Source of the DNA: Neovahlkampfia damariscottae
Lineage: Eukaryota; Heterolobosea; Selenaionea; Neovahlkampfiida; Neovahlkampfiidae
Direction: 5' to 3'
DNA: 64,000 nucleotides
NCBI GenBank assembly: GCA_016618085.1
Contig: JABLTG010000074.1
Coordinates: 30,514 to 94,513, forward strand
The notes under the pieces are model-generated. The model did no database searches. It saw only the letters and a program-made list of their open reading frames with translations, and had not been told where the DNA came from. The position numbers were made by a program, and so were the translations under genes. Positions 4,582-64,000 of this stretch are shown one piece after another. Every line of letters begins with the position of its first letter. Within the stretch, counting starts at the first letter, position 1.

Positions 4582-4814
4582 TTTGCTTGTTTACTTCGGC
4601 AGATAAAAAAGTTTTTAACAGTTCAAAATAGAAACTAAAATGATTGGCTATTTCTTCCACAACGGAAAAGTTTCATTCGTCCAATCATTTAAGAACTATT
4701 TTGTTTTTTTTCCAAAAATTATAAATCAAAATCAAATATACTTCAATTTTCATCAAAAAAATTTGTGATTTATTCATCCAATGAAATACTGTTTATCAAC
4801 GACAATCTGACTTG

Positions 4815-6056
4815 ATGTTCAATAAAAGTGAAGCCATAGAAATATTAGAGACCAATCCAACATTGAAAAAACTGTCCAAAGAACAATTGTATAATTACGA
4901 TTTCATGTATTATGCAATCAAAAAATATGGAGCAGCTGAGTTATTAGGTTGGCAATTCCAACACTTACCTGATTATTTAAAACAAGATTCTGAAATTATA
5001 AAATACTATGCAAAAACATTTGGAATAAAATTGAAAGACATACCGACCAGTTGGACAAAAGAAGAATTCAAAAAATCTTGTTTCTCAATAATTGTCCAAA
5101 ACCCAAGGAGTATTGAAGATGCCCCTGATTTCATTAAAGATGATGAAGAAATAATGGAAATATGTATTCATGAATCACCTGAATTATTACAATTTGCTTC
5201 AGAAAGACTGAAAAATGATAAGAAATTTGTGTTAAAAACTTTACAAATTGATAAAGGAATAAATCTCAGTGATTATATTCTTTGTACAAGAGTACCATTG
5301 AAATTTGCATCTAAAAGATTGAGAAATGATAGAGAAGTGATCATAGAATCCATCAAATCAAACTACTTAAATTTACAATATGCATCAGCAGAATTCACTA
5401 TGAACAAAGAATTTTTATCAGAATGTATGAGGACAAATGGACATTGTTATGATATTAATCATGTATATAAGAATGATGAAGACATTTGTATGGCTGCTGT
5501 TTCCGAAAATGGATTAGTAATTGCAGAAATGCCAACAAACATTCAAATGAATGAAAAAATAGCATTTGAAGCTGTAAAGAAATCAGGATATGCTTATTTC
5601 ATACTATACCAAAAGATAGGTCATAAGGCAGATTTCTTTAAAAAGTTTGATTTTTGTATGGCAACTGTTGAATCATATCCAGAAGCAATAATTTACAATG
5701 AATTTTATCAAAGAGACAATAGAGAAATAGCAATGACAGCATGTTCTAAAGATGGTACACTTTTAAATTCGTATCGATGGAGAAGTACAAAAATTAATTT
5801 CTGTGATGATGAGGAGATCGTAATGGTTGCTGTAAAACAAAATGGATTAGCATTAGAACAAGCATCAGCAAGATTAAAACAGAATAGAAAAATAGTATAT
5901 CAAGCTGTTAAACAGAATGGTGATGCTTTAAAGTACTCTATCGGTTTTGAAAATGATGTAATCATTACTATGCTTTCAGAGAAAATGTATTTCAAATTGA
6001 TTACTGATATGAAGATGGAGAGATTATTTGATGTCAATTTTAGTTTTTTGAATTGA
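4815..6056 (+). CDS. DUF4116 repeat protein
   Basis: A single exon of 413 residues built from imperfect repeats of about 45-50 residues with the consensus 'ND.E.V...V..NG.AL..AS..LK', for example EIVMVAVKQNGLALEQASARLKQNRKIVYQAV near residues 335-370. This is the DUF4116 repeat, an all-helical repeat of unknown function that is expanded in several protists. There is no signal peptide, membrane helix or enzyme motif. Two more members lie at 51.3-54.4 kb. A CCAAT box sits about 35 nt upstream of the ATG. The last about 30 residues (LITDMKMERLFDVNFSFLN) resemble the ends of the other two copies (IKDINFSFA, LNDFTFHFKDE), so a short C-terminal cap is shared. Confidence 0.8.
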   Translation: MFNKSEAIEILETNPTLKKLSKEQLYNYDFMYYAIKKYGAAELLGWQFQHLPDYLKQDSEIIKYYAKTFGIKLKDIPTSWTKEEFKKSCFSIIVQNPRSIEDAPDFIKDDEEIMEICIHESPELLQFASERLKNDKKFVLKTLQIDKGINLSDYILCTRVPLKFASKRLRNDREVIIESIKSNYLNLQYASAEFTMNKEFLSECMRTNGHCYDINHVYKNDEDICMAAVSENGLVIAEMPTNIQMNEKIAFEAVKKSGYAYFILYQKIGHKADFFKKFDFCMATVESYPEAIIYNEFYQRDNREIAMTACSKDGTLLNSYRWRSTKINFCDDEEIVMVAVKQNGLALEQASARLKQNRKIVYQAVKQNGDALKYSIGFENDVIITMLSEKMYFKLITDMKMERLFDVNFSFLN

Positions 6057-21315: not shown

Positions 21316-22040
21316 TTATTCAGAGATTGAACATACTTCATCAACAACAAGTTGAACAGCTTTAATAGCTTCAACAGCTTTGTTTAAGTTGTCAAATTTT
21401 ACAAGTAAAGTTTGATCAGCATCATAATTCATTCCTTTAAGAATATTCCAACCTAAATCATTATAATTGTGAAGGTCTTTTCCTAATCCCATAGCAATAA
21501 CTTTCCATCTTGCATCTTGACCAGCAGCTTTACGCCATGAATTAATTTCAGTAGCTCTTGCTACAGGTGAAGCACATGGTTGACACCAAACTCCATAATT
21601 ATCTGAACAAGAAACACAATTTTTACATGGATGATGTCCAATATAATCACATTTGTTACAATTACATGGTCTATTTGCAACACCATCTGACATTACAACA
21701 ATTACTTTTGGAATTCCTTTTCTTCCACCATTTGTATCATGTACTTTAACTGCATCATTCAAACCGAGTAATGTACCTGTCCATCCTCTCATATGATCAT
21801 TTTTCAAACCATTTAATTTATTATTGAGAACTGCGTTGTAATTTGCTAAACCAATTTTTGTTTTTGAAGTTGTTGAAAATTGAACAACACCAATTTTGAT
21901 ATCATTTGGATGATTCATATTTTTAGTGATAGCTTTACTAATATTTTTAGAGAATTCAACTTGTGTAGCCCAATCATTATTTGACATTGATCCTGAACTA
22001 TCTAAAGCAAAAACAACATCAACTTGACCACGACATTCAC
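21316..22040 (-). other. von Willebrand A domain with cysteine-cluster insertion
   Basis: The last 240 or so codons of the giant surface protein read DVVFALDSSGSMS (complete MIDAS motif D-x-S-x-S), then a Thr in the TGTLLGLNDAV segment and the D of VIVVMSDGVAN, which complete the metal site. Eight cysteines are packed into about 33 residues immediately after that Asp, where a normal vWA has a short loop. The insertion could hold disulfides outside the cell or bind metal. Confidence 0.85.
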
Positions 22041-25000
22041 AATTAATATATTTAACTGTAACTGTACCACAAACTGTAGCTCCTGGAAGTTTATCTGTAT
22101 CTACACAATATTTGAATTTATTTTCACGACATGAATTTTGTTTGTAGTTTAATGTAATATATCCAGCAGAAGGTGAATTCAAAACTGGTTTTTTATCAAA
22201 GAGACAATAAATATCATTATCTAATGTGTTACAATCCACAAGTGAATGGAATCTAAGTGACATTCCAGCTGGTGCTTCATCATTTGCTAATAATGATTCT
22301 GTTGAAATGACAGCAGGAGTATTCCAGTTAACTTTAATTAAATCATCATTTACAACTGGTAAAGCTTCAATGACTGTAACTGAAAGTGTTCCTGTAGCTG
22401 TTTTTGAATTATCTTGATCTGAATCTTTAATTGTATAAGTAGCTGTTGTTGTACCAGCAAATGAATTTGAAGGAACAAATTTTACTTTGTTTGCTTCAAC
22501 AGAAACAGTACCAACAGTTCCATCAGTCAATGAAACTGAAACAAGTGAAACTGAATCACCTGCATCTGGATCACTATCATTTTCTAAAACAGCAATTGAG
22601 TGAGAAGCATCGTTGACTTTGAAAGCATTATAAACATCATTGACAGCAATTGGAGCTTTATTATTAATTGTAACTGTGACAGTTTGAGGATCAGATGCTA
22701 AAAGACCATCAAAGCAAAGGTATTTGAATACATAAACTCCTGATCTTTGAGATTTTGATGTAAATTTAACTTCTGTTTGACTTTGAATTGAAACTTCTGC
22801 TTTGTCAGCAACATTTGTCGCATCTAATTGAATTGTAATATCATCACCATTTGGATCTGAAGCAGAACCTAATGTTTTGAGATCCCAAACATAACTTTGG
22901 ATTTTATCAACAGTTTTTGTAATTGGACCACATGTTGGTTTTTGATTTGTAACTGTGATTGAAAGTTTTGCTGAAGCAGTTAATTGACCATCTGAAAGTA
23001 CAAAAGTAACTTCATCATTTCCACGGAATGTTGAAGCTGGTTTATAATTGATTTTGTTATTAACAATTGTAACAGCAGCTCCGTTTCCAGTTGTATATGA
23101 AATTGCAGAAATTGTAATTGCATCTCCATCAGCATCAGTTGTTGTTGTACCAATGACATCAATTACTTGAGCAACATTTGCAGCAGTTTTTGCAAATGTG
23201 TGAGATTTATCTGTAGCAGTTGGTGGTGCATTTCCTACAGTAACTGTAACAGTTCCTTCTGATGACAATCCATAAGAATCTTTTACTTTGTATTTGAATG
23301 TATCAACAGCAATTCTTTTATCGCCACTTGTAGATGTATAAGTGATTGAAGACAATGGAGTGTAAGTTACTTCATTTCCTGCAACAGTGATACTTCCTGA
23401 AGTTGGTTGTTGAGAAATTGATGCCAAAGTGAGTGGTGTGTTATTTTCTACATCATTATCATTCGTAATTGGTAAAATTTGAACTTGTTTGTTCCATTGA
23501 ACAGTTGCAGAATCAGCAACAGCGTTTGGAGCAGAATTTGAAATTGTAACTTTAACAATTCCTGTGTTTGAATCTGACATAGAATCTGTAGCAACATAAG
23601 AAATAGTTTCTTCTCCAACAAATCCATCTTTTGGTTTATAAGCAAGTTTGTTGTTTGAAATTGAAACAGAACCAGTACCGGTGTACGAGAATGATTTAAT
23701 TGTAAGAGGATCTGTATCTACATCATTTGATAAAACATCTAATTCAAATGTACTTTGTGGTTGTGTTCCAGTGAAAGAGTATGTATCATCATTAGCAACA
23801 GGAGCAGTATTTTGAACAGTTACAGTAACAAGTTTAGTATCAGTTGAAGCACCATCAAAAACAGTATATGAGAATGTAACTGCTTTGTTAACAAAGCTTG
23901 ATGGTGTTGCAGCAGAGATTGATGCACCATTTGCTGTTTTTGATATAGTTCCAGCAGTAGAATCTGATAAAGCAGAAACACTTTGAAGTGAAACAATATC
24001 ACCGTCAGCATCTGTAGCTCCAGTGAGTAAATTCATAGCAAAACCAGTTTTATGTTCTGTCCATTGAATAGTGAAGCTCTTAGCTTGAGCAACTGGAGCA
24101 GTATTTGTAACTGAAACAATTGCTTGTTTTGTAACTTTAGCTAAACCATCTGTAACAACGAAATTGAAAGTACAATCTCCAAGAACAGCAGGGTTTCTAT
24201 TTGCGAATGTGAGTTTTCCAGCATTTTGTGAAACATCACCGCATGTTGGTGAAGTATGACTTTCATATGAAACTGAATCTTCAGCATCTGCATCAGAAGC
24301 ACCAGTGAGAATTGAGAGTTCAACTGAATTTGCTGACCAGTGAATTGTAGCTGTTGCATCATTTGCTGTTGGTGCTTGATTTGTAACTTTGACTTCTACA
24401 GTGAGTTCAGGTTTATTATCACCAGCAACATTTGACATTTTAAGTTTAAATGTATCAGTTCCAACAAATCCAACATTTGATTTATAGTTAATTTTGTAAA
24501 CTCTAGCAATATCATCAACAACTTCAGCAGCTTCAAAAGAAACTGAACCTGATTGTGGAGGAACAGTAACGTCTTTTGTTAAGTGAAGTGTTTTCTTGTC
24601 AACTGCATCTGTAATATTTTCTGTGACAAATAAAACATTTCCTGTTGTTTGAGATGCTTTCCAATGTTTTGAATATGATTTAAATGATAAAGTTGGAGCA
24701 AGATTGTCAACATTAACAGTAGCTTCAAGTGAATCATCAAGTCCATCAGTAACTGTATATTTGAATGAATCAGCACCAACATATCCATTAGTTGGTACGT
24801 ATTTAATTTCGTTTCCATTGTTTTGAATAACAGCAGTACCTTGAGTTGGAGAAACTGTGACAGCTTTAATTGTTAAATGAGGAACATCAGCAGCATTTGC
24901 ATCAGTTGCATCAGCAGCAGCATCAATAACAAGTCCAGAAGCTGCATTTGAAGCATGAAGATATAAACTATATGATTTTGCAACTGGAGCTGCATTTGTG

Positions 25001-28000
25001 ATTGTAAATGAAACTGTTGCAGTAGCAGTATCTAATCCATCAGAAACTGTATAATTAAATGAATCAGCTCCTTTATATGGTTGATTTTGTGCATAACTCA
25101 ATGAAACAGCACCTGAAGTAGCATCAGTTTGTTTTGTAACAACACCATTTTGTGGATTTGTTAAAACAACTGTAATTGAATCACCATCACCAGTTGTAGA
25201 AGTTTGAGTAACTTGAGTAACAGTTGGAGTTTGTCTCCAATGAATTGTATGTGAAACAGGTGAAGCTGAAGGTTTATCAGTATTTGTAACTGTTACAGTA
25301 ACAGTACCTGTAGCTTCAGAAGCTCCATCAGTAATTGTATAGTGAAATGAAAATGATCCTGATGAACCATCTGGTTTGTATGTCAAGACATTTCCAACTT
25401 TAGTAACTGAACCTTTAGATGGTTGAGTGAAAGTGGTAACTGAAATAGCATCTAAATCTGCATCGCTATCGTTATCTAAAACGTTAATTTGAACACCGTC
25501 AACAGATTTCCAATGAACTGAAGCAACATCAGCAACAGCAACTGGAGCTGTATTTGTAACAGTAACTGAAACTAATGCTGTAGCATCTTTGTCTTCGTCA
25601 GTAATTGTGTATTGGAATGTTTGAACACCAAGATCTGCAGTTGCTGTATATTTAATTTTTCCTCCTTCAATAACAGCAACTCCTTTAGTTGGAGTAGTAA
25701 CTGATTTAATTGAAATAGCATCTGAATCTGCATCTGAATCATTTGATAAAACATCAAAAACAGCAGTAGCACCAAAGTGTAAAGTATAAGCATCAGCTTG
25801 AGCTACAGGAGCTGTATTTTGAACATCAACGTTAACAGTAGCTGTGTTTGAACCTTCAATTCCATCTGTAATTGTATATGTGAATGAATCTGTTCCAACA
25901 AATCCTGTATTTGGTTTGTAAGTGACAGTTTTTTTATTTGCATCAATTGAAACAATTCCATTTGTAGCTGTTGAAACAGATGAAACTTCTAAAATTGCTA
26001 AATCACCAGGGTTAATATCTTTATCATTTGACAAAACATCAATTGTTTTTTGTGTATTCCATTTCATGGTGACACTATCATCTACAGCAACAGGTGCTGT
26101 ATTGACAACATTAACTGTAACAGTGACTTCGTTTGAAACAAGATCTTTATCAGTACATTTATATTTGAATGTATCAACATAAGCAGCACCAGTTAAAGCA
26201 GTATATTGAACTTTGTTGTTTACAATTGATAATGAAACACCGGATGTTGAAACACTGTCAACTGAAGCAATTTCAAGAGTATCTTGATTAACATCACTAT
26301 CATTAGCTAAAACATCTAATTGATTTGATGATCCTCTTTGAGCTGTGAAAGTATCAGGATTTGCTTCAGGAGCTGTGTTACTAACAGCAACAACAACTTG
26401 AGCATCGGATGTTAAAGCTTTTGTCATATCTTCTTGGATGTCTGTAATTGTATACATGAATGAATCAACACCAGCGAAATCAGTTGGAGGTGTATATTCA
26501 ACATCTGAATCTGAAATGACTGCAACTGAACCACCTTTATCACATGCTCCAATACTTTTAATTTTAAGAGCATCACCATTTGCATCATTATCGTTGATAA
26601 CCAAACTGATTATTTTTTTGTTATTTTTTTGTGATGCTGAATTATCGTTAACAGCTACTGGACGAGTATTAACAACATTAATGTTAACTGTTCCTTCAAC
26701 AGATTTATCTCCATCACTTACAATGTATTTAATAACATCAGTATAAAGTTTTCCTTTTTGAGGTGTATAGGTTAATGTATAAGTATTTTTTGTATATGTG
26801 ATATCTTTGTCGAAACCTTCTAAATATCTGGTAGTAATTTGTTCTGATTGACTTGTAAGTGAATATGTACCAAGTGTAGGTGGTGTTGAAATTGAAACAG
26901 TTAAAGTGTTAAATGGATCTGGATCTGAATAAAGAATGTTGAGTACATTGTCATTTGAATTTTTGGAAATTTCAACGTCAATTGTTCCAGCAACAGGTGG
27001 TTTGTTCACCATAGCAATTGAGACATATGATTGTGAAGTAGCCTCACCATCTGTAATTGTATAAAAAAAGTAGTCAAATGGGTATTCTGGTGCATAAGGG
27101 TAATACTTGACAGATTTTCCATCTGCAGAAAGCACTGGTGTACCTAAACTAGGTTCAATATGTATAATTGTTAAGTTGTCACCATTTGGGTCAACATCGT
27201 TTACAAGTGGATATATATCGAGCACTACATTTGTTGGAGAATCATGAAGCAAATCTGGATTCGCTACTGGTGGTTCGTTAACAACAACAAAACCAACATC
27301 TGTTGTAGTTGATCCACTACCATCAGTAACTGTGTATGAACCTGAATCTGGAAGTGTTTGAGCAACATCAGCATTTGAGCTTGATTGAGAGTTTGAAAAT
27401 CCTTTGTTCGGTGTATAGATGACTGTTTTTCCATCAGCTGAAACTTTTAAAACACCATTAGGTGGTTGTCTAGTAATTGTGGCAATTGAAAGTTCGTCTT
27501 CGTCAACATCAGTAGCTTGTTTTCCTTGTTTATCTTTATCTGATAAAACAGAAGCAACATAGTTTTCTGTATTCATTGGAACAACATACACAAGTGCAAC
27601 AGGTTCTGGTAAACGATTTCTAACATCAACTGTCACATTTGTTGTTGATTCTAATTTTTCATTTTGAACTGAGTATGTGAATGTAACTATTCCTTCGTAA
27701 TGGTGTCCTCTTTTACCCATGTTTTGCGGAGTATACAATAGGAAATTACCAGCATCGATAACCACCGAACCATACCGTGGTTGTGTAACTTTAGATATTT
27801 TTAAAACGCCTCCTTTTGGATCAACATCGTTCAAAAGAACATCCATTTTGAGTAAGTTTGTTTTTGTTGTGATATATGTATCTGGTTTGAGAACAGGAGC
27901 TGCGAATGATGAAGTTGTAGCAACGACAATAACAGTGAGTGTGGTAGCTGTTAAAGCCATAGAAGCAAATGTTGCTGAAAAAAAATAAATTTGAAAAATC

Positions 28001-28115
28001 TCAAATTACCTCCTGCCAAGACTTGCATCAATGGTCCAACTTTAAATAATGAAAAGTTAAGACCAGTTGACGCTGATGAGGAAGTTGCGGTTAATATTCC
28101 TGCTTCAGTTGTCAT
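21316..28115 (-). CDS. Giant surface protein: about 20 bacterial-type Ig/cadherin-like repeats plus C-terminal vWA domain
   Basis: Two exons, 28115-28010 and 27974-21316, with a 35-nt intron give 2254 residues. Residues 1-35 are polar; a hydrophobic helix follows (about 30-65, LAGATFASMALTATTLTVIVVATTSSFAA) as signal peptide or signal anchor. Then come about 20 repeats of 90-100 residues with the consensus 'N.APVA..D......VL.ND.D...L.I.SV..P..G.V......Y.P...F.G.DSF.YTITDG', the tandem cadherin/Ig-like type common in bacterial adhesins. The C-terminal 230 residues are a von Willebrand A domain with MIDAS DSSGSMS and an inserted eight-cysteine cluster (RPCNCNKCDYIGHHPCKNC region). Base composition is less AT-biased than the neighbours. 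Role in adhesion or prey capture is inferred. Confidence 0.88.
22100..27900 (-). repeat. Tandem protein-coding repeats of about 290 bp
   Basis: About 19-20 tandem units encode the Ig/cadherin-like domains of the giant surface protein. Unit borders can be counted by the 'N(T/S/K)APVA' motif, which recurs at roughly 95-100-codon spacing. DNA identity between units is low by eye, so the array is old or under divergent selection and not a recent amplification. Confidence 0.8.
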
Positions 28116-51319: not shown

Positions 51320-52402
51320 TTATGCAAAAGAAAAATTTATATCTTTGATTGTTTCTAATTTATCAAATGAATGCATTCCATGTATTTTTAAAAGGAACAT
51401 GATATCATATGAATCTGCTTGATTAACTTTGTCCAATGGATAAATTTCATCTCTCCAACTATTCTCAAAATATAATTGATCATATAAATAAAATTTGGTT
51501 GTCAAATAATCATTAATTCCATTTGCTAATTTATACTTTAATGTTTTCTTTTCAGTAGAATTTTCAAAAGTTTCAAGTTGTTTAAAAATGAATTTTGAAA
51601 TAAACTTATAAGGTACTCCTTTAATACTCGTGTATAATAATGGTGCGTTAATATAAATATCAGTTGTTTCTTCATTCTTGAATTCTTCAGAAATATATGG
51701 GTAAATTTCTGGTTGTTTTTTTAGCATTGATAAAACAACCAAATAATCATTTTTCAAAACATCTCCAATAACACTGTACTCCCATGGTGCATATGTTATC
51801 ACTATAGTTGCTAAATCAATATCATTTTTTAATTTTTCAGGTAAGGTTTTCATGTGACTTCCAAAATATTTTAAAGTTTCCATCATGACTTCTTTATCAC
51901 ACCAAAATTCATATGGCAATAAATGTGGCACATAATTAGTTGTACTCATCAATTTCATTAAGAACTTTTTGTCTTTTCTTATGACATTCGGAATTTTTTT
52001 GTAATTCGGATATGCATAAAGTAGTTCTGGATTTTGAAACATTTTCCATATAATTTCTTTATCTGATCTCATTTCTTCATTAATGACTCTATAAATCATC
52101 AAATTTTCAGCTATTATTTCCAGAATTATTTTTTTGTTGTTTCTTAGTCTTGGAGAGAAATATTTGAATGATTTTAAAAATCTTTTTTTGTTTTGGAAAC
52201 ATTGATCAAATAGTTCATCATTGTCACGAATATTCTTGTCAAAATACCTTAAAGTTTTTGGATTAAGTTTCACGCATGTTTTTGCAACTTTTAAGCTCTG
52301 AAGAATATCTTTTGGTGCTCTTTTGATATAATTTCCATCATATTCAATTAGTTGGATATAATTATCTTCTTGTGATTCATGCCAAAAATTGGGTTGGTTC
52401 AT
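51320..52402 (-). CDS. Divergent DUF4116 repeat protein
   Basis: A single exon, 360 residues when started at ATG 52402; the frame is open for another about 27 codons upstream but has no ATG there, and an ATTGG box about 30 nt before 52402 supports this start. Repeats are degenerate but visible (DKEIIWKMFQNPELLYAYPNYKKIPNVIRKDKKFLMKLM; PEKLKNDIDLATIVITYAPWEYSVIGDVLKNDYLVVLSMLKKQPEIYPYISEEFKNEE). They match the DUF4116 pattern of a helix, a proline turn and an N-D-x-x-x-V/I start. The C-terminus (LETIKDINFSFA) resembles the copy at 4.8 kb. The function is unknown. Confidence 0.7.
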   Translation of the reverse strand: MNQPNFWHESQEDNYIQLIEYDGNYIKRAPKDILQSLKVAKTCVKLNPKTLRYFDKNIRDNDELFDQCFQNKKRFLKSFKYFSPRLRNNKKIILEIIAENLMIYRVINEEMRSDKEIIWKMFQNPELLYAYPNYKKIPNVIRKDKKFLMKLMSTTNYVPHLLPYEFWCDKEVMMETLKYFGSHMKTLPEKLKNDIDLATIVITYAPWEYSVIGDVLKNDYLVVLSMLKKQPEIYPYISEEFKNEETTDIYINAPLLYTSIKGVPYKFISKFIFKQLETFENSTEKKTLKYKLANGINDYLTTKFYLYDQLYFENSWRDEIYPLDKVNQADSYDIMFLLKIHGMHSFDKLETIKDINFSFA

Positions 52403-52548
52403 ACGCACAGTTGTTGGAAAAAAAATTGTCCAATCATGAGCAGTTCTCTCTGAACAAATTATTTCTTCCAAATTTTGATTCACACAATTGATGGTTCAAA
52501 TTGAAATAGAGGTTTCTCTTCAAATTTAAATTGTAGAGAAAAAATAAA

Positions 52549-52557
52549 CCAATCGCT
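52549..52557 (+). promoter_or_regulatory. CCAAT box between divergent DUF4116 genes
   Basis: CCAAT (52549-52553) lies 4 bp before the ATG of the plus-strand DUF4116 gene. The minus-strand neighbour has its own ATTGG/CCAAT element nearer to its start. Confidence 0.4.
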
Positions 52558-54378
52558 ATGAGTTTTATTTCTGAAGAAGTCATTGAAGAGAATGGAAACC
52601 TTTTGAAGTATTGTTCTTCTTCATTAAGAAAATCACCTGAATTTGTTATGTTAGCATTAAAAAATTGTCCTCAGGCCATTAATTTTGCTCACAAAAAATT
52701 AAAACAAAACAAAAATTTCTTATTCGATGCAATCTCATTGAATCAAAACGTATTTGATTTTATATCATATACAATAAAGGATGATGAAATATTTATATCT
52801 AGAATTATCAAAATTAATGGTTTGTTCATTGAAAAATGTACGAAAAGAATTCAAAGCAATAAAAACATCGTTTTAGCAGCAGTTCAACAAAATGGAATGG
52901 CATTAGAATTTGCTTCAAAAAGTCTAAAAAATGATAAAAAAATCGTTTTGGAAGCTGTAAAACAAAATGGATGCTCAATTCAATTTGCTTCAAAAAATTT
53001 AAAACTTGATAAGAAAATTGTCATTGAAGCAGTAAAAAATCATGAAAATGCTCATAAAAATGTTCCTTTGAGTTGTTATAATGATAAAGAAATTATTTTC
53101 AATTCAGTAAAAAAGAATGGTTTGACATTACAATTTGCATCAACAAAACACAAAAACGATTTAGATATCATTACAGCTGCTATTTCAAACAATGGAAATG
53201 CTTTAATTTATGCATCTGATATTTACAAAGAAGATAAAAAAATTGTCATTTTGGCATTGAATCAAACCTTAGAATCTCTTAATTATGTAACAAAAATGTT
53301 GAAAAAAGATTTTGATGTTTGTATGACAGTGGTAAAAAAAAATGGAATGTTCATTGAGAATTTACAAAATAGAGCTGATGAGATAGTTTTAGAGTCTGTG
53401 AGAAATAATGGTCTTTCTCTTCAATTCACTAATGCAGCCAGATTTAAAAATGAAATTGTTTTGGAAGCAGTAAAGAATAATGGACTTGCTCTTCAATATT
53501 CTGCTGACCCAACAAGAGAAATAACATTAGAAGCTGTGAAAAATGATGGAAGATCCATAAAATTTGCATCAGAAAAATTCAGAGATGACAAAGAGATAAT
53601 GATGACTGTTGTGGAAAAATATCCACTTTTGGTTTCATATGCATCAAATGAATTACTTGATGATGAAAAGTTGATTTTAAATGCTGTTTTAAAAGAAGGA
53701 ATTTCTTTCCAATTTGCATCTGATCGCTTAAAAGATAATTTTGAATTGGCCAGAATTGCTTGTGAACAAAATCCAAAAGCAATGGAATATATCTCTAATA
53801 GATTGCAAAATGAAAAGGAAATTGTTTATCCATGTGTAAGAAAACTAGGAAATCTCTTCAAATTTGCCAGTTATCAACTTCAAAAAGAGAAGGAACTCGT
53901 CAAAATAGCAGTTACTCAGTATCCACCAATGATTGAATATGTCAATTATCAATATTACAATGACAAAGAAATTATGAAAATTGTTATAGAAAAGAGTCCT
54001 TTTTTGATTTGTTTTGGTTCCAATTCAATAAAGAACAATTTGGAACTTTGTTTAATTGCCGTTGAAAAAAATGCTTCTTCAATAACTCACATGCTTGATC
54101 GTCCAAGGAATGATGAACAAATAATGAATATTGTAATGAAACATTCAATGAAGCTAATATCTCATTGTGGTACTGGATTATTGTTTGTTAAATCATTCGT
54201 GATTAGTGCATTAAAATTGGACAGAGTTGGATTCATGAAACATGTTCAAGAAAATTTTTTCATTGATATTGATATTTTAATGCTTATGGATGGATTGTAT
54301 TTAGAATTGAGTTACAAACATGAAAAGATTGGATTGTTAAATGATTTTACTTTTCATTTCAAAGATGAAATATATTAG
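52558..54378 (+). CDS. DUF4116 repeat protein, 12 or more repeats
   Basis: A single exon of 606 residues made almost wholly of repeats of about 45 residues, the most regular in residues 95-330: KNIVLAAVQQNGMALEFASKSLKNDKK, KIVLEAVKQNGCSIQFASKNLKLDKK, EIVLEAVKNNGLALQYSADPTREI. The consensus is '(D/N)KEIVLEAVK.NG.ALQFAS..LK.'. Some units are shortened (around residues 270-320), a sign of unequal exchange. No other domain is visible. In protists such proteins form large families, so roles in recognition or scaffolding are guesses. It faces a degenerate paralogue on the minus strand. Confidence 0.85.
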   Translation: MSFISEEVIEENGNLLKYCSSSLRKSPEFVMLALKNCPQAINFAHKKLKQNKNFLFDAISLNQNVFDFISYTIKDDEIFISRIIKINGLFIEKCTKRIQSNKNIVLAAVQQNGMALEFASKSLKNDKKIVLEAVKQNGCSIQFASKNLKLDKKIVIEAVKNHENAHKNVPLSCYNDKEIIFNSVKKNGLTLQFASTKHKNDLDIITAAISNNGNALIYASDIYKEDKKIVILALNQTLESLNYVTKMLKKDFDVCMTVVKKNGMFIENLQNRADEIVLESVRNNGLSLQFTNAARFKNEIVLEAVKNNGLALQYSADPTREITLEAVKNDGRSIKFASEKFRDDKEIMMTVVEKYPLLVSYASNELLDDEKLILNAVLKEGISFQFASDRLKDNFELARIACEQNPKAMEYISNRLQNEKEIVYPCVRKLGNLFKFASYQLQKEKELVKIAVTQYPPMIEYVNYQYYNDKEIMKIVIEKSPFLICFGSNSIKNNLELCLIAVEKNASSITHMLDRPRNDEQIMNIVMKHSMKLISHCGTGLLFVKSFVISALKLDRVGFMKHVQENFFIDIDILMLMDGLYLELSYKHEKIGLLNDFTFHFKDEIY

Positions 54379-54538: not shown

Positions 54539-56455
54539 ATGAAAAATTCTTGCTTGCTTATCTTGCTGACTGTTTCTTTTCAAATTTTGTTTTTAAATTC
54601 AGAGCCTTGTTTCATTTGGAAGAACCATTTTGTGAAGGTTGTGAAACTGTCAAAAATGAGAAATAATCAAACTGAAATTTTTTATGAATTTGAATTTGTT
54701 GGACGACAAGATAAAGGATGGATGGGATTTTCACTTTCAACGAACAAATCCACTGAAGATTCAACTTCTGTTGTTGGTTATTACCCAAACAAAATTCTTC
54801 TTTTCAACAATCACACAGAACAATTTTTGGACAATTTTTCAGAGATGAAAGTTATTAGGCCTTGGAATTTTGTAGTTGATGGCATATTTTCATTTAAAAT
54901 CACCTTGAACGCATCAGTTATGTCTGGAAAGAAGTATCTTTCCATTGGACAATATAGCGATCATTTATATGAATGGACAAACAAAACTGTATTGCCAAAA
55001 CATTCTGCACTCAGTGATTTTATAAATTTTGACTTGAATTCACCAAACGAGAATTATCCATTTTGTACAACAAATTTAAATTTTCCAGGAAGATTAATGG
55101 CTTTTAACTGGATTTCATACACTATCAGTGCTTTATTATTAGCACTAATTGGATTTATATTTATTTATTACAGAAATGAACAACCTCTCAAAAGTAGATT
55201 TGTTGCTCCATTGTATTGTATCATCGGCACACATACTGGATTGATTGGCGAATTCATTTATGGATTATTTCCATTTGAACAAAGTGCATATTTTCAATGT
55301 GCATTTCATGGTTTTTTTGTTTATGCTCCGGTTCAATTTTCACTCGTTATTCCTTCATTAATGATCATCAGATATACCATTTTTTTACAGCTGCATTTTT
55401 ACAAAAGAAATTACATAAAAAAACATAGAAAACTAAGAAAAACAATGTTTGGAGGAAGTACTTCTGGTTCTAACTCATTCATTTCCAATGAAAATATCAC
55501 AATGAAAAAAGAAAATACTTTAATGAAACTTTGGAAAATGATGAGAGATTTTCTCTCAAGATTAAAGTCACCTTGGTTTTTTGTAGTTTTGCCATTCATT
55601 TGGACTGCTTTTTACATGTTTTGTGCCGCTTTGATTTTTGGAATTGGAGGATTTCGTTGTAGTACTTTTTCAAGAACTTACATTAGAATTGCTCACATCA
55701 TTTTACTTGGAGTTGCTTTTATTCTCTTGACAACATTTATATTTTTGGATTTCTTATTAAGCATCAGAAGATGGATAAAATGTGAATGGAAAATATATTT
55801 ATATGAAGAAGATCCGTTTCATTATAGATTAGATATGCTGACTTGTATTGTTGCATTTTATCCAATGTTGATCATTTGGGCTGTTGTTCCACTTCCAAAA
55901 ATGATTTCAGGTGCAATTGTGGATTACTTGAACATTATTGCAGTTGTTTTGACTGGAGGTACTGCTTTAGTTATTACAATTTTTCAAACTGTCAAACATT
56001 CAATCCAGAGCAAAATAAATGAAAAAAATGAAGCACAGAATCCAAATAGAATTCATTTAACTCCAGAGATGATTTTTGCCGAAAAGACGTTATTGGACAT
56101 ATTTCTAAAATTTGCAACTCTTGAATGGTCTTCTGAGAATATTTATTTTGTTCTTGATGTCATGGAGTATAAAAAGTTAAAAGATCTGAAAGCCAAGAGA
56201 CATAATGCGTTTCAAATCAAAGAGAATTATTTCATACCGAATGTTTCACCATTACAAGTGAATGTTACTGGAAAAAATTTAAAACCATGTTTGAAGATGA
56301 TGGATGAAAATGACTTTACAAATGAATTGTTTGATGCAGTTCAAGAGGAAGTTGAAGTAAATATTTGTGATACAATTTCAAGATTTATCATTTCTGATGA
56401 GTATAAGGAATACAAGAAATATGATGCAGAAAGATTAATTACCTTAGGATTGTGA
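54539..56455 (+). CDS. DOMON-7TM-RGS receptor-like protein, copy 1
   Basis: A single exon of 638 residues. Residues 1-22 are a signal peptide. Residues about 25-185 form an N-glycosylatable extracellular domain of DOMON type (EFEFVGRQDKGWMGFSLS, SVVGYYPNKILLFNNHT). Seven membrane helices follow (about 190-480), with the intracellular loop after TM1 EQPLKSRF and the TM3 end IIRYTIFLQLHFYKRNY. Residues about 515-635 are an RGS domain: LLDIFLKFATLEWSSENIYFVLDV...YKK; the ENI motif that stabilises G-alpha switch regions is intact. 7TM-RGS proteins (AtRGS1 in plants) accelerate GTP hydrolysis by G-alpha in response to a ligand. The intron found in copies 2 and 3 is missing here. A CCAATCA box is about 35 nt upstream. 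Confidence 0.85.
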   Translation: MKNSCLLILLTVSFQILFLNSEPCFIWKNHFVKVVKLSKMRNNQTEIFYEFEFVGRQDKGWMGFSLSTNKSTEDSTSVVGYYPNKILLFNNHTEQFLDNFSEMKVIRPWNFVVDGIFSFKITLNASVMSGKKYLSIGQYSDHLYEWTNKTVLPKHSALSDFINFDLNSPNENYPFCTTNLNFPGRLMAFNWISYTISALLLALIGFIFIYYRNEQPLKSRFVAPLYCIIGTHTGLIGEFIYGLFPFEQSAYFQCAFHGFFVYAPVQFSLVIPSLMIIRYTIFLQLHFYKRNYIKKHRKLRKTMFGGSTSGSNSFISNENITMKKENTLMKLWKMMRDFLSRLKSPWFFVVLPFIWTAFYMFCAALIFGIGGFRCSTFSRTYIRIAHIILLGVAFILLTTFIFLDFLLSIRRWIKCEWKIYLYEEDPFHYRLDMLTCIVAFYPMLIIWAVVPLPKMISGAIVDYLNIIAVVLTGGTALVITIFQTVKHSIQSKINEKNEAQNPNRIHLTPEMIFAEKTLLDIFLKFATLEWSSENIYFVLDVMEYKKLKDLKAKRHNAFQIKENYFIPNVSPLQVNVTGKNLKPCLKMMDENDFTNELFDAVQEEVEVNICDTISRFIISDEYKEYKKYDAERLITLGL

Positions 56456-56999
56456 ATGTTGAATAAAATTTTCTTGATTTCATTGGTTGTTCTATTTATT
56501 TTCATACAAAATGCCTCAATTGAAAGACAAAAAAAACAATTTTGATTTAATGATTTTGATGATGAAATAGAAACTGAATGAAAAACACAAAACAGATTTA
56601 CAAAAATATTAACTCCAATTTTTGATTTCAAAAAAAAATAAAAAAGAGAGAAATGTTTGCTCACTTTTTAAAACATTAAAAAATTTGTAGATTAGAACAA
56701 AAAAAACACTTCACTGAACGAACTCAAAGCGGCGGACATCTCTCTGTTGATGATTTGAATCAAACTGACAATAAGAAATTGATGTTAGCCATTTTATTTT
56801 TTTCTTGACACGTTTTAGGAAAGATTGTCCAATTTAAGAAACAACGGAAAAATGAATGATTTCAGTTGAAGCTCAAGAATGGATGATTTTTCGATAGATT
56901 TACTCTTTATGAATATCCATTGATCTCATTTTTTTGAAAGTGTTGACTCAGAATTGAACCAATGAAAAAGTGTCTTCTTCTCTGACGTTAGATTTTCAG
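56456..56999. other. Gene-free gap between receptor copies 1 and 2
   Basis: In these 544 bp I see no credible gene, tRNA or repeat. A short reading frame starting at 56510 (19 codons, Lys/Asp-rich) follows an ATTGG box at about 56484 and would be longer with one more base, so it may be a decayed small gene. A CCAATG at about 56959 probably belongs to the promoter of receptor copy 2. Confidence 0.5.
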
Positions 57000-58977
57000 A
57001 TGTGCAGACACTTCATTTTAATTTATGTCATATTAGCGATTTTAATGATTGTATCAAGTTCAAAGCCTTGTTTTATCTGGGAAAATCATTATATCCAAGT
57101 TACCAAGTTTTCAAGAGTTTCAAACAATAAAACTGAACATTTTGTGGAACTTGAGTACGTTGGAAGACAAAATCGAGGGTGGCTAGGGTTTTTATTATCT
57201 AGAAATAAATCAACGCAAAACTCAATTTCGGTGGTTGGATATTTTCCAGATAACATTTTGTTCTTCAAAAACCACACAAAAGTTATTTCATCAAAAATAA
57301 GTCAATCATTTTCAACAGTACAGACATTGAATTTCAAAATAGATGGTTTATTCTCATTTAAAGTAGTTTTTAATGCATCAGTTATTGCTGGATTTAACTA
57401 TATTACTTTTGCTCAGAATTTCAATTTTTTACCAACATTTACGAATGAAACTCACCTTAAAAAACATACATCAGCAAGTGATTATTATCATTTTACAATA
57501 GATTTACCTGATGACAAATATCCTTATTGTACAACTACTTTGAATTTTCCTGGAAGATTGTTAGGTCAAAACTGGGTATTGTATGTTTTAAGTGCATTGG
57601 TTTTATCTGTAGTTGGGTTTATTTTCATCTATTTTAGAAATGAACAACCGCTCAAAAGTCGTTTTGTTGCTCCTTTGTATTGTATTATTGGAACCCACAT
57701 GAATCTATTTTCGGAATTCATTTATGGACTATTTCAATTTGAACAAAGGTGAAAATCAGATTTATTAACATATTTGTAGTGCTCATTTTCAGTGCGCATT
57801 TTATGGATTTTTGATTTATGCTGCAATTCAATTTGCTTTAGTAATTCCTTGTTTAATGATAATAAGATATGCCATATTGTTACAACTACATTTTTATAAA
57901 AGGGATTATATCAAAAAAAACAAAGCATTGAGGAGATCTTCATCATTCAATCTTGATTCCACCTCTGCTGCTACGATGACTACTAACATTTCAAATCGAG
58001 CAAAATCAAAGTTATCTCTGTATTATGAAGAAAGCTCTTTTTTATCCAAAGCTTGGAAGAAAATGAGAGATTTACTTTCGATTTTGAAGTCACCATGGAT
58101 TTTCATCATTGTTCCTATTTTTTGGGTTTCATTTTACTATTGTTGTGCTTTTATCGTTTTTTCCATTGGAGGTTTAAGATGTGGATCATTTTCTCGAAAT
58201 TACATGAGAGTAGTCCATATTGGGTTCTTAGGAGTGGCCTTTATCATTTTAATTTTGTTCATTTTACTTGATTTTTTTCTCAGCATTCGTAGATGGATCA
58301 AATGTCAATGGAAAATTTATTTTTTTGAAGAAGATCCATTTCATTACAGAATTGACATGATAACTTGCATTTTCGGTTTATTACCAATGGTTATCATCTG
58401 GGCAATTGTTCCACTTTCAAGGATGATTTCTGGAGTCATTGTTGATTATATGATGATCATTTCCCTGTTTTTAACAGGAGGAAATGCTCTAATCATCACA
58501 ATTTTCAAAAAAGTTAAACTTTACATTCAAAACAAATTGAATGAAAGAAATGATTCAAAGAATCCAAATCGTATTGTTTTGGATATTGATATGATTCTGG
58601 CTGAAAAAAAATTGTTGGAAATTTTCATCAAATTTTCTGATTTTGAATGGTCCTCAGAGAACATTTATTTCATATTAGATGTTATGGAATATAAAAAACA
58701 AAAGGATATAAAATCAAAAAGATTATTAGCAATTCAAATTAGAGAGAACTATTTTATTGCAAATATTTCTCCTTTGGAGTTGAATATCAGTGGGAAATAT
58801 TTGAAACCATGTTTAAAATTGATAGAAGATAATGAATTCACTAATGAGATATTTGATAATGTTCAAAAAGATGTTGAAGTTAATGTGTGTGATACAATTA
58901 CCAGATTTGTAGTTTCTGATGAATATCAAGATTACAAAAAGTATGACGCTGAAAGATTATCAAATTTAGGATTGTGA
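57000..58977 (+). CDS. DOMON-7TM-RGS receptor-like protein, copy 2
   Basis: Two exons, 57000-57748 and 57780-58977, with a 31-nt intron give 648 residues. The order is the same as in copy 1: signal peptide (FILIYVILAILMIVSSS), DOMON-type domain (LEYVGRQNRGWLGFLLS), seven membrane helices and an RGS domain (LLEIFIKFSDFEWSSENIYFILDV). The intron falls at the start of TM3, and the spliced sequence EQSAHFQCAFYGF matches copy 1 EQSAYFQCAFHGF. A Ser/Thr-rich intracellular loop 2 (SSFNLDSTSAATMTTNIS) differs from copy 1 and resembles copy 3. The receptor would signal to heterotrimeric G proteins at the plasma membrane. Confidence 0.85.
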
Positions 58978-59251
58978 AATTGAATTTTGACAATATATGA
59001 AATTGTTATTCCTTTGGAGCAAGGAGAAATTTAAATTGCAAAAAGTTCTATTCTAAAAGTTGGATCAAGTTTTCGCAATATCAGAAAAGAATCAATTTTT
59101 TCTAAAATAAGAAGTTTGATTGAAAAGTAAAGTTGTTTTCAAATATTAAATTTTATGGTGACTTCTAATTTCTTGTTGATTATTTTATCTTGGTTGACTC
59201 AAGTCAGAAATCCACCAATCGAATCGCATACAGTTTCTTGACGTTACCGAC

Positions 59252-61236
59252 ATGAAGCTGGACTTACAAATTCTCTTCATTTTACTTACAACACTAACTA
59301 CTTTTACGATAACAAAACCATGTTTTTTATGGGATAACCTATACGTCCAGGTCACCAAAACTTCAAAAAAAACCTTAAATCAAACAGATTCTTTTTATGA
59401 ACTGGAATTTGTTGGACGTCAAAATAGAGGATGGGCAGGAATTCTATTATCAACAAATAAATCATTAGATACGTCAATATCCATCATTGGATACATACCA
59501 AACCAAATATTTTTGCTTCACAATCACACACAAGTTGATTCATCAGATAATTTCAATTCAATAGAAATAATTGACAAACTAAATTTTAAAATGGACGGAA
59601 TTTTTTCTTTTAAAGTCACTTTGAACGAGTCTTATATTTTAGGAAAAAATTACATTAACATTGCTCAAAATTACAACTACTTACCTGGTTGGAATAATGG
59701 AACAAGCATACCAAAGCACACAGGATTAAGTGAATTTATGCCTTTTGAACTTGATTTACCTGATGAAAAATATCCTTTTTGTACAGACAATCTGAATTAT
59801 CCAGGAAGAATGTTAGCAAATCATTGGACTTTATACCTCGCAAGCACATCAATTTTAGCAGTACTAACAATTTTATTGGTATATTTTAGAAACGAACAAC
59901 CACTTAAAAGTAGATTTGTTGCTCCATTGTATTGTATTATAGGTACTCATATGAATTTATTCAGTGAGTTCATTTTTGGAATGTTTCCATACGAGAAAAG
60001 GTTTATTTTTATATTTCTAATGATTTTTTCAGTGCTTATTGGAATTGTTCATTTTATGGCTTTGCTGCTTATGCTGCAATTCAATTTTCAATTGGTATAC
60101 CTTGTTTAATGATGATTAGATACGCTATTTTATTACAATTACATTTTTACAAAAGAAATTACATTAAAAAACATAAAGCATTGAAGAAATCACCATCTTT
60201 CAATTTAGATTCAACAAGTTCTTCTGCGGCGACTGTCACCACAAATTTATCAAAGAGAACTAAATCAAAATTATCACTTCATTATGAAGAATCAAATTTA
60301 TTTTCAAGAGCATGGAAGAAAACAAGAGATTTACTCGCTTATTTAAAATCACCTTGGATTTTTGTTGCAGCCCCTATTATTTGGGTGGGGTTTTATTTAT
60401 GTGTAACTTTTGTAATTTTTGCGATTGGTGGTTTAAGATGCAGTGAATTTTCACGTACTTTTATCAGATACAATCATATATTATTTTTATTCATTGCTCT
60501 TATGGTATTGATCTCATTTGTGTTGCTTGATTTTTTTTTAAGTCTCAGAAGATGGATAAAATGTCAATGGAAGATATACTTATTTGAAGAAGATCCATTT
60601 CATTATAGAGTTGATATGTTTACCTTTGTATTCGGTTTATTTCCTCTCATTGCTATTTGGGCAGCGCTACCACTTCCAAGAATTTTTGGAGGTGCAATAG
60701 TAGATGGAATTATGGTGATTGCATTATTCCAAACCTCAATAAATGCACTGGTAATAACTATTTTCAAGAAATTGAAATTCATGATTCAAAGTAAATTTGA
60801 TGAAAGAAATTCATCAACGAATCCGCATCACATCAAATTAACTCCGGAAATGATTTTTGCGGAAAAAAAATTATTAGATATTTTCATCAAATTTTCAGAT
60901 TTTGAATGGTCCTCAGAGAATATATATTTCGTTTTGGATGTGAATGAATACAAAAAACAAAAAGATGTAAAATCAAAGAGATTATTGGCCATTCAAATCA
61001 AAGAGAATTATTTTGTTCAAAATGTATCTCCGTTGGAATTAAATGTCACATTCAAAAAATTGAAACCTTGCCTGAAATGTATAGAAGAGAATGAATTTAC
61101 AAACAAATTATTTGATAATGTTCAAAAGGAAGTTGAAGTGAACATTTGTGATACAATTTCCAGATTTATTGTTTCAGATGAATATAAAGAATACAAAAAA
61201 TACGATTTTGAAAGATTATCTTCATTGGGATTATAA
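59252..61236 (+). CDS. DOMON-7TM-RGS receptor-like protein, copy 3
   Basis: Two exons, 59252-60000 and 60033-61236, with a 32-nt intron at the same place as in copy 2 give 650 residues. The first exon has exactly the same length (749 nt) as in copy 2. The domains are the signal peptide, the DOMON-type domain (LEFVGRQNRGWAGILLS), seven helices and an RGS domain (LLDIFIKFSDFEWSSENIYFVLDV) with an intact ENI motif. Extracellular domains of the three copies differ more than the loops and the RGS domain, which suggests separate ligands with common signalling. A CCAATCG element lies about 35 nt upstream. Confidence 0.85.
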
Positions 61237-61246
61237 AATCAAGTTT

Positions 61247-61643
61247 AGATTTGTGATGGTACAGTGTATATTTTGGTTGTTCATATTATGCTTTTTTTTT
61301 ATATGCTTCACTTCAATTTTCATTGATGATTCCTTGTTTAATGGTCATTCGCTACGCAATATTATTACAGTTACATTTTTACAAAAGAAATTACATTAAA
61401 AAGCACAAATTATTAAGAAAAAGTTCTTCTATGAATATAATATCCTCAGATACCACAACACAATCAAGTATTTCATCAAAATCAGAAATTTATGTTGAAA
61501 AATCAATTCTCAGAAAAATTTGGAAGAAATTACGGGATATATTATCAGTATTGAAATCACCTTGGATATTCATAGTTGCTCCAATTATTTGGGCTTCAAC
61601 ATTTTTGGTTGTTTTTGCTTATGGTGTGTGGCAGGACTCGTAG
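61247..61643 (+). pseudogene. Truncated fourth DOMON-7TM-RGS copy (TM3 to TM4 only)
   Basis: The fragment begins with the end of the conserved intron (acceptor CAG near 61261-61263) and continues in frame with TM3 (SVYFGCSYYAFFLYASLQFSLMIPCLMVIRY), the KRNYIKKHK segment, a divergent Ser/Thr loop and TM4 (SPWIFIVAPIIW), then stops after VFAYGVWQDS. The DOMON domain, TM1-2, TM5-7 and RGS domain are missing. It starts about 10 bp after the stop of copy 3, so unequal crossing-over or an illegitimate join probably made it. There is no start codon of its own. Confidence 0.85.
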
Positions 61644-62229: not shown

Positions 62230-64000
62230 TTATAAGTCAAAATCTCCAAAGTATGAATAAATATTCGGATTCATGTATTGTTGAAGTTTATCATTATCAA
62301 TTACAATTAAATCTTCCCAAAGTAAAATTTTCTCTTTTTGAGTATCATTTATTTTTCCATTTGTAATGAATACATAAATTTTTTCATAATTCTCAAAATG
62401 ATTTTCCATCTTTTTATGCATACTTTCATACCAATTAATAGGATTTTTTTCTGTTTCTTCTTCACTTGTATGTTTATATTGAATAAATATCAAATAATCA
62501 GAATAATCTTCATATGGACTTTCAATAAATAATCTTCTATCAAATCTTGGATGATTTAATGAGAACTGGAATACATATTTAAAAAAATCTTTTGTTGTCA
62601 ATTTTTTTTTTCTTTTTGTTATGAGAATTGGTTTATTTTTTGAATGATATATCAACTTGTTATTCTTTAATTCAACGAAAGATTTGGTTTCTAATGCATA
62701 TCTCCTTTCATTGTAATTAAATTGGAGTTCTAAAACATCGTTATTGGCGTAACCTTGAAAAATATCTTTCATCTTAGGTAATTCTTTGGATTCAATATCT
62801 TTTCTAAAATGAAATAATAATGATATTCTAAATAAATCTATTTTTTCAAATAATTGCCATGTTATTGATGTTTTTAAATCTGGTAATAAATCGAAAGGTA
62901 AAATTGAAGTGTATTCACATAATTTTTTGAATATAAAATGAGAAGTAAATACTCTGCCATTTATTTGATGTAAAATTCCTTTTTCAACAAATTTATAAGT
63001 CAATTGGATATGTTTATTTTCTAGGTCAGTATATTGAAGATTAGAAAATAATATTAAAAGTAAATCATTTGAATATTTTTTTGTTTCATCATCTAATATC
63101 ACATTTCTCATTTTATTATAACATTCATTCATAAATTCAATATCAATTTGAATTTCACTTTGAGTGTTTCCTTGAAGTTCATTAAAATAATTTATAAAAA
63201 TATTAATTCCTTTTTCTAAATCTCTTGGAATTAAAGAACATAATATCCAAAATCTATAAAATTCACTTTTAATATTTTTATTTTCATATTGAATAATTTT
63301 TTCATCTTTTAATATTTTTTTTAATGTTTCAATGGTAAATGAATCTAATTTAAACTCATAAAAACCATATTCAGTTAGAAGAAATTTAATATCATTAATT
63401 TTTGTTCCTCCAATACTTGGTATTAAAATTAAATTATAATCTTCAATTCTATCTTTTCTTCCCCAAATATATGATCCAATATTATTTCTGATATCTTTCC
63501 ATTCTCCTTCAACTCTATTTAACGTATATTGTATTTCATCTAAATTGATAATAATTGGTGTATATCCATTAATGTTTTTTTTTCTGTTATATTCATTGAT
63601 ATAATCATTTAAAAAATCTAATACAATACTTAACTCAAAAACACCAGAATTTGAATAAATTTCAAAATTATTTTCAATTTGAAATTCTTCAATTTTTTCA
63701 TTTCTAAAAAATCTACTAAATATTCTAATACCAAGTATATCATTTGGATCTTTACTTTCTTTGACAATAATTTTATCACCATTAAAAAAATCAATATAAA
63801 TTTGTAAAGTATTTTGAAATTCTGGATATTTTTTTGAATCAATGTTTAATAAAATATTTCTTAATTCTAATAAAGATCTTGTTTTTCCCATTCCTGAACC
63901 TCCAATATGTAATAAATATTTTATATCTTGTTTGCTGTATGTTCCATTTTTAAATCTTTTAATTAAATCTAAATTTTCAATTGCTGATTTTTTAGCAACT
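62230..64000 (-). CDS. RHS/Crinkler-type P-loop ATPase with possible C-terminal nuclease domain (5' end outside window)
   Basis: The frame is open to the right edge, so the N-terminus is missing; at least 589 codons are present. The Walker A motif is IGGSGMGKT (near 63880-63910), followed by RSLLELRNIL. A Walker B-like strand IIINLDEIQ lies about 120 residues later. This is the layout of the ATPase domain in retrotransposon-hot-spot (RHS) and Crinkler-type proteins. The C-terminus (ALETKSFVELKNNK, DYSDYLIFIQYKHTSE) resembles the restriction-endonuclease-fold domains often fused to it (a D...ExK/QxK pattern), but this is weak. Such genes are often linked to recombination or mobile DNA; the broken receptor copy next to it fits. 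Confidence 0.7.
   Translation of the reverse strand, partial: VAKKSAIENLDLIKRFKNGTYSKQDIKYLLHIGGSGMGKTRSLLELRNILLNIDSKKYPEFQNTLQIYIDFFNGDKIIVKESKDPNDILGIRIFSRFFRNEKIEEFQIENNFEIYSNSGVFELSIVLDFLNDYINEYNRKKNINGYTPIIINLDEIQYTLNRVEGEWKDIRNNIGSYIWGRKDRIEDYNLILIPSIGGTKINDIKFLLTEYGFYEFKLDSFTIETLKKILKDEKIIQYENKNIKSEFYRFWILCSLIPRDLEKGINIFINYFNELQGNTQSEIQIDIEFMNECYNKMRNVILDDETKKYSNDLLLILFSNLQYTDLENKHIQLTYKFVEKGILHQINGRVFTSHFIFKKLCEYTSILPFDLLPDLKTSITWQLFEKIDLFRISLLFHFRKDIESKELPKMKDIFQGYANNDVLELQFNYNERRYALETKSFVELKNNKLIYHSKNKPILITKRKKKLTTKDFFKYVFQFSLNHPRFDRRLFIESPYEDYSDYLIFIQYKHTSEEETEKNPINWYESMHKKMENHFENYEKIYVFITNGKINDTQKEKILLWEDLIVIDNDKLQQYMNPNIYSYFGDFDL

Follow-up and report, generated by a model that had tools for sequence, protein, structure and literature searches.

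Proteins in which seven transmembrane helices are fused to a cytoplasmic RGS domain (7TM-RGS proteins) have been described in plants and in Naegleria, where the fusion accompanies a self-activating G-alpha that needs no guanine nucleotide exchange factor (GEF) (PMC3386157, PMC9283941). AtRGS1 of Arabidopsis acts as a GTPase-activating protein (GAP) on such a self-activating G-alpha and has been linked to glucose (PMC3386157, PMC9283941). For Naegleria fowleri, 28 7TM-RGS proteins were reported, and the RGS domains of three of them speed up GTP hydrolysis by G-alpha subunits of this same amoeba; one RGS/G-alpha pairing is doubted by the authors, who describe two subunits as self-activating and state that how outside cues alter GAP activity remains to be determined (PMC9283941). 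Here, we analysed a 64,000-nucleotide stretch of the Neovahlkampfia damariscottae genome (contig JABLTG010000074.1, positions 30,514 to 94,513 of the forward strand; hereafter the window, in whose positions all coordinates without a contig name are given), which carries on its + strand, at 54539-61643, three tandem intact genes and then one gene fragment. We consider that this array probably, though far from certainly, encodes cell-surface 7TM-RGS proteins with an ectodomain of the DOMON type, which would act as ligand-controlled GAPs and set the off-rate of G proteins.

The array proteins resemble the N. fowleri 7TM-RGS proteins in having an N-terminal ectodomain, seven helices and a C-terminal RGS domain, in belonging to an expanded protist family and in the presence of several G-alpha subunits (PMC9283941). 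With AtRGS1 they share the 7TM part and the cytoplasmic RGS domain (PMC3386157, PMC9283941). Varied ectodomains on 7TM-RGS proteins are already known, and what appears to be new is the DOMON ectodomain, found in one genome to which environmental sequences add relatives. AtRGS1 is not known to have a large ectodomain, which by description sets it apart from the array proteins, and no binding site is known for the glucose to which it is linked. The fungal class VI G-protein-coupled receptors (GPCRs) of Aspergillus, presumably also 7TM proteins fused to RGS, would be a further likeness.

Gene 1 (54539-56455) is a single open frame of 638 residues without an intron. It starts with a predicted signal peptide (residues 1-21, 54539-54601; hydropathy, with an AlphaFold2 (AF2) helix at residues 2-16 of low confidence), which suggests that the N-terminus lies outside, and continues with the DOMON-type ectodomain (residues 22-186, 54602-55096; six N-glycosylation sequons), the seven membrane helices (residues 187-498, 55097-56032; hydropathy and AF2 model) and the RGS domain (residues 511-625, 56069-56413). 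Gene 2 (57000-58977) encodes 648 residues after removal of a 31-nucleotide GT-AG intron of phase 2 (57749-57779), and gene 3 (59252-61236) encodes 650 residues after removal of a 32-nucleotide GT-AG intron (60001-60032) of the same position and phase. Spliced in this way, the two genes are identical letter for letter to EukProt proteins P0002 and P0003, respectively. The three intact genes, the fragment and the order DOMON-7TM-RGS in one chain had been proposed in a first-pass annotation made from the sequence alone, and all of these are borne out, the order by RGS Pfam matches, AF2 helices, and profile and structure comparison.

The RGS domains score 36.2, 42.5 and 39.0 bits in genes 1 to 3 against a Pfam cut-off of 23.9 (E 9.7e-11 for gene 2 at 58588-58935; 1.2e-9 for gene 3 at 60850-61194). 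The ENI motif, which had been called intact, indeed reads SSENI, and the G-alpha contact residues are invariant in all 20 aligned family members, a set from which three loci not cleanly modelled (C246, C299, C164) and a pair fetched later (C253) were excluded. This last pair (C253:80281-83942, L078) consists of two neighbouring distant DOMON-7TM-RGS-like genes, neither with a Pfam DOMON match; in one of them (82191-83939) a Tyr replaces the conserved RGS Asn and the domain scores 23.6 bits against the cut-off of 23.9, so that its GAP activity may have been lost. The genome yields 123 G-alpha match pieces (several per gene, some under the family cut-off) and, with 150 of 421 candidates scored, at least 150 matches to RGS, which for a genome of 20 Mb is a very large G-protein repertoire. 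In 24 of 30 fetched, partly overlapping G-alpha loci we located a switch I motif containing the RGS-sensitive glycine; the search pattern itself demanded the glycine, so the remaining six loci are uninformative.

Is the membrane part that of an ordinary receptor? The AF2 model of gene 1, a check that the first-pass annotation had suggested, shows seven long helices, the last of which extends towards the RGS domain, and the bundle matches a GPCR-like fold in structure comparison. Plain hydropathy gives a signal peptide and six of the seven helices in genes 1-3, with TM2 under the threshold; by the same rule all seven appear in 5 of 19 modelled members. An invariant Cys lies near the start of TM3 and a second one in the second outer loop. 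Where TM3 reaches its inner end, R278 is present in 20/20 members and Y279 in 19/20 (Phe in the remaining one), a pair reminiscent of the DRY motif. Fold, cysteine pair and Arg-Tyr pair would all suit a conventional GPCR whose ligand-bound helices activate G-alpha, the fused RGS domain being a built-in timer that shortens the signal. We regard this as possible but unlikely, as the Pfam listings of 11 members contain no 7tm family at E<=10, and as 7TM-RGS proteins of plants and Naegleria go with a G-alpha that dispenses with a GEF (PMC3386157, PMC9283941).

The assignment of the ectodomain rests on relatives, profiles and predicted structure taken together. A plain Pfam search of the window genes gave no DOMON match at E<=10, and the DOMON (PF03351) cut-off of 32.7 bits is reached by none of 18 different family proteins, four of which show matches below it (E 3.5e-5 to 0.15). 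In a profile-profile comparison with DOMON the ectodomain reached P 6.6e-5, the best value among 10 shuffled controls being 0.014, while the ectodomain profile found no match at E<=10 among PDB sequences. The ectodomain was folded alone, the Foldseek and VIA lists of the whole model being filled by RGS and 7TM matches, and its predicted beta-sandwich is of the kind seen in dopamine beta-hydroxylase and dehydrogenase cytochromes. The DOMON type is thus supported, at the level of models. Two further items may be ectodomain-only copies or bad gene models: P0014, a predicted protein of 345 residues with a family-like ectodomain at its end but neither 7TM nor RGS, and a genome match covering the ectodomain alone (C173:17937-18482). 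Other DOMON proteins of the same genome, labelled by eye, resemble ferric-reductase fusions (L055, L058) or copper monooxygenases (L056, L057).

What could such a domain bind? In dehydrogenase cytochromes and in CYBDOM proteins (DOMON plus cytochrome b561) a Met ligates the heme (PMC10691727). The array proteins resemble CYBDOM in carrying an extracellular DOMON on a membrane helix bundle, but differ in their seven helices, the lack of conserved membrane His and of the heme Met, and the added RGS domain (PMC10691727). Indeed, all 20 members lack a Met in the ligand column and up to three columns to either side of it, whereas the Met is present in all seven comparison DOMON stretches from the same genome, and we rejected a Met/His heme site of the b-type cytochrome kind. 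A cytochrome b561, whose membrane helices carry four conserved heme His, was likewise rejected, since the membrane part has no conserved His in the 20 members. Just two His, H92 and H155, are shared by 85% or more of these; both belong to the ectodomain and each is kept in 19/20. H155 is aligned with the C-terminal DOMON His, two members (C276a and C273b) have a His adjoining the missing-Met column, and a structure of a Met-to-His cellobiose dehydrogenase cytochrome exists (1pl3, by its title), so that one could imagine a redox or heme sensor in which the conserved His and another ligand bind heme and the heme or electron state drives the receptor. Given the missing Met, the position of H155 in a region with pLDDT under 50, that of H92 inside a glycosylation sequon and the lack of a conserved membrane His, we consider such a sensor very unlikely. 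The first-pass description of DOMON as a domain that elsewhere binds heme or sugars needs to be narrowed here, as the heme Met is missing.

A glycan or protein could also be bound on another cell. In N. fowleri, several 7TM-RGS ectodomains, compared here by description, differ from ours in consisting of EGF-like repeats, lectin domains and GPCR proteolytic site (GPS) motifs, and a part in contact between cells was proposed for adhesion-like members (PMC9283941). DOMON also stands beside EGF-like repeats in two other N. damariscottae proteins (L059 and L061, by eye), the second of which has RCC1-like repeats as well. If the array proteins served adhesion or recognition between cells, the RGS output would follow contact and not soluble cues; we judge this distinctly improbable, because the ectodomain is short and single-domain and the Pfam matches of the window genes include neither EGF nor lectin nor GPS domains.

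We favour instead a ligand-controlled GAP. The predicted parts (signal peptide, DOMON sandwich outside, GPCR-like bundle, and RGS domain with G-alpha contacts inside) have support from sequence and structure prediction. The DOMON domain would bind a small ligand or glycan, other than through a Met/His heme site, and the seven helices would relay the ligand-induced change inward. In the cytoplasm the RGS domain, which a continuous helix connects to TM7 in the model, would then start or stop accelerating GTP hydrolysis by G-alpha. Such a receptor would set the speed at which the G protein is switched off instead of merely switching it on, a chemosensory off-switch, as the first-pass annotation had suggested, that fits the published work on 7TM-RGS proteins in plants and Naegleria.

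Is the array an isolated case? We found 80 loci related to the three query proteins (merged places of the genome searches, including the four of the window), 76 of which reach the RGS domain and 32 of which align from the ectodomain through RGS; the counts are rough, as each search scored a part of its candidates, RGS-only matches may be unrelated RGS genes and one gene or more (C272) was perhaps counted twice. Five members form a group on C273, C253 has two adjacent ones, and C276 carries a close pair whose genes are oppositely oriented. The tandem family proposed earlier is upheld. In a tree, genes 1-3 and the C189 copy are united with 100/100 support, an environmental relative (P0005) pairs with the C87 copy (97/99), and two distant rows sit on long branches. 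Intron positions sort by subfamily: a phase 2 intron at gene 1 residue 249 is found in genes 2 and 3 and the C189 copy but not in gene 1 or the C87 copy, a phase 2 intron at residue 268 in 11 modelled members of a second group, whose twelfth member (C276a) seems to carry an in-frame one at this site, and a phase 1 intron between DOMON and TM1 in two distant members (C165 and C120; the C120 and C233 introns were picked by hand from candidates).

When genes 1-3 and the C189 copy are compared with one another, the ectodomains are 50-58% identical, TM1-3 62-75%, TM4-7 54-65% and the RGS domains 68-81%. The claim of more variable ectodomains is therefore right only in part, since variability is not peculiar to the ectodomain. 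Among the 276 pairs of 24 family sequences or stretches (including the fragment and a C253 stretch with two genes), one long identical tract stood out: 386 bp shared by C273:50818-51203 and 72177-72562 (L070:1319-1704 and L071:1178-1563), about 21 kb apart and confined to the DOMON part of two receptor genes that are diverged elsewhere. The next longest tracts measure 95 bp (at the beginning of contig C164 and downstream of a gene) and 41 bp. In the first protein, the 386-bp tract corresponds to residues 44-172 and takes in most of the DOMON sandwich but not its first two strands, and outside it 60-base windows are 44-83% identical, apart from short gapped ends. From the sequences, this looks like a single case of recent gene conversion of the ligand domain, or possibly an assembly error. 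One may speculate on a large chemosensory repertoire in which gene conversion exchanges a variable DOMON between receptors as a DNA cassette, with ligand-controlled switch-off of self-activating G proteins as the output, a tentative and rather doubtful extension.

Protein searches, in each of which about 8000 word-sharing candidates were scored, returned only EukProt proteins of N. damariscottae and two environmental proteins: P0005 (JGI; 37%, full length) and P0013 (ENA; without ectodomain). A search for the same domain order across protists had been suggested in the first-pass annotation; given this number of scored candidates, and because one of our searches missed several sequences of its own query alignment, absence elsewhere does not follow. 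In the open-licence literature we found no DOMON on a 7TM-RGS protein and no searched paper that contains both terms. The word DOMON is absent from the main text of the Naegleria paper (PMC9283941), a match in a Brassica RGS paper was rejected as an author name, and in a diatom paper DOMON and a GPCR-like protein belong to two different genes (PMC8027222).

The fourth copy (61265-61643, +) consists of a second exon running from the intron acceptor to TM4, without ectodomain or RGS. By eye, its coding part starts at about 61265, directly behind an AG acceptor; it spans TM3 to TM4, ending at 61643. The gap between the gene 3 stop and this exon is just 28 bases, which leaves no first exon, and the fragment shares one identical 32-nucleotide stretch each with the C189 copy and gene 3. 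The introns and the GC content of 25-35% per 4-kb block mark the window as eukaryotic. Elsewhere in it lie three DUF4116 repeat proteins, at 52537-54378 (+; Pfam E 5.2e-125; directly upstream of the array), 51320-52495 (-; 2e-27) and 4785-6056 (+; 1.5e-56), and a 2229-residue protein (21316-28005, -) with 17 matches to Big_9 (bacterial Ig) and cadherin-like repeats and a C-terminal von Willebrand A domain, its repeats looking bacterial although they stand in a eukaryote. A long open frame adjoining the array (62230-63999, -) has no Pfam match at E<=0.01 and, by eye, a P-loop-like GSGMGKT stretch.

In summary, N. damariscottae may sense chemicals by controlling the rate at which its G proteins are turned off. 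For the question of how 7TM-RGS proteins sense, the family offers a compact, single, foldable extracellular domain on a 7TM-RGS chassis in dozens of paralogues, and such ectodomains would allow direct tests of receptor action through the G-protein off-rate.
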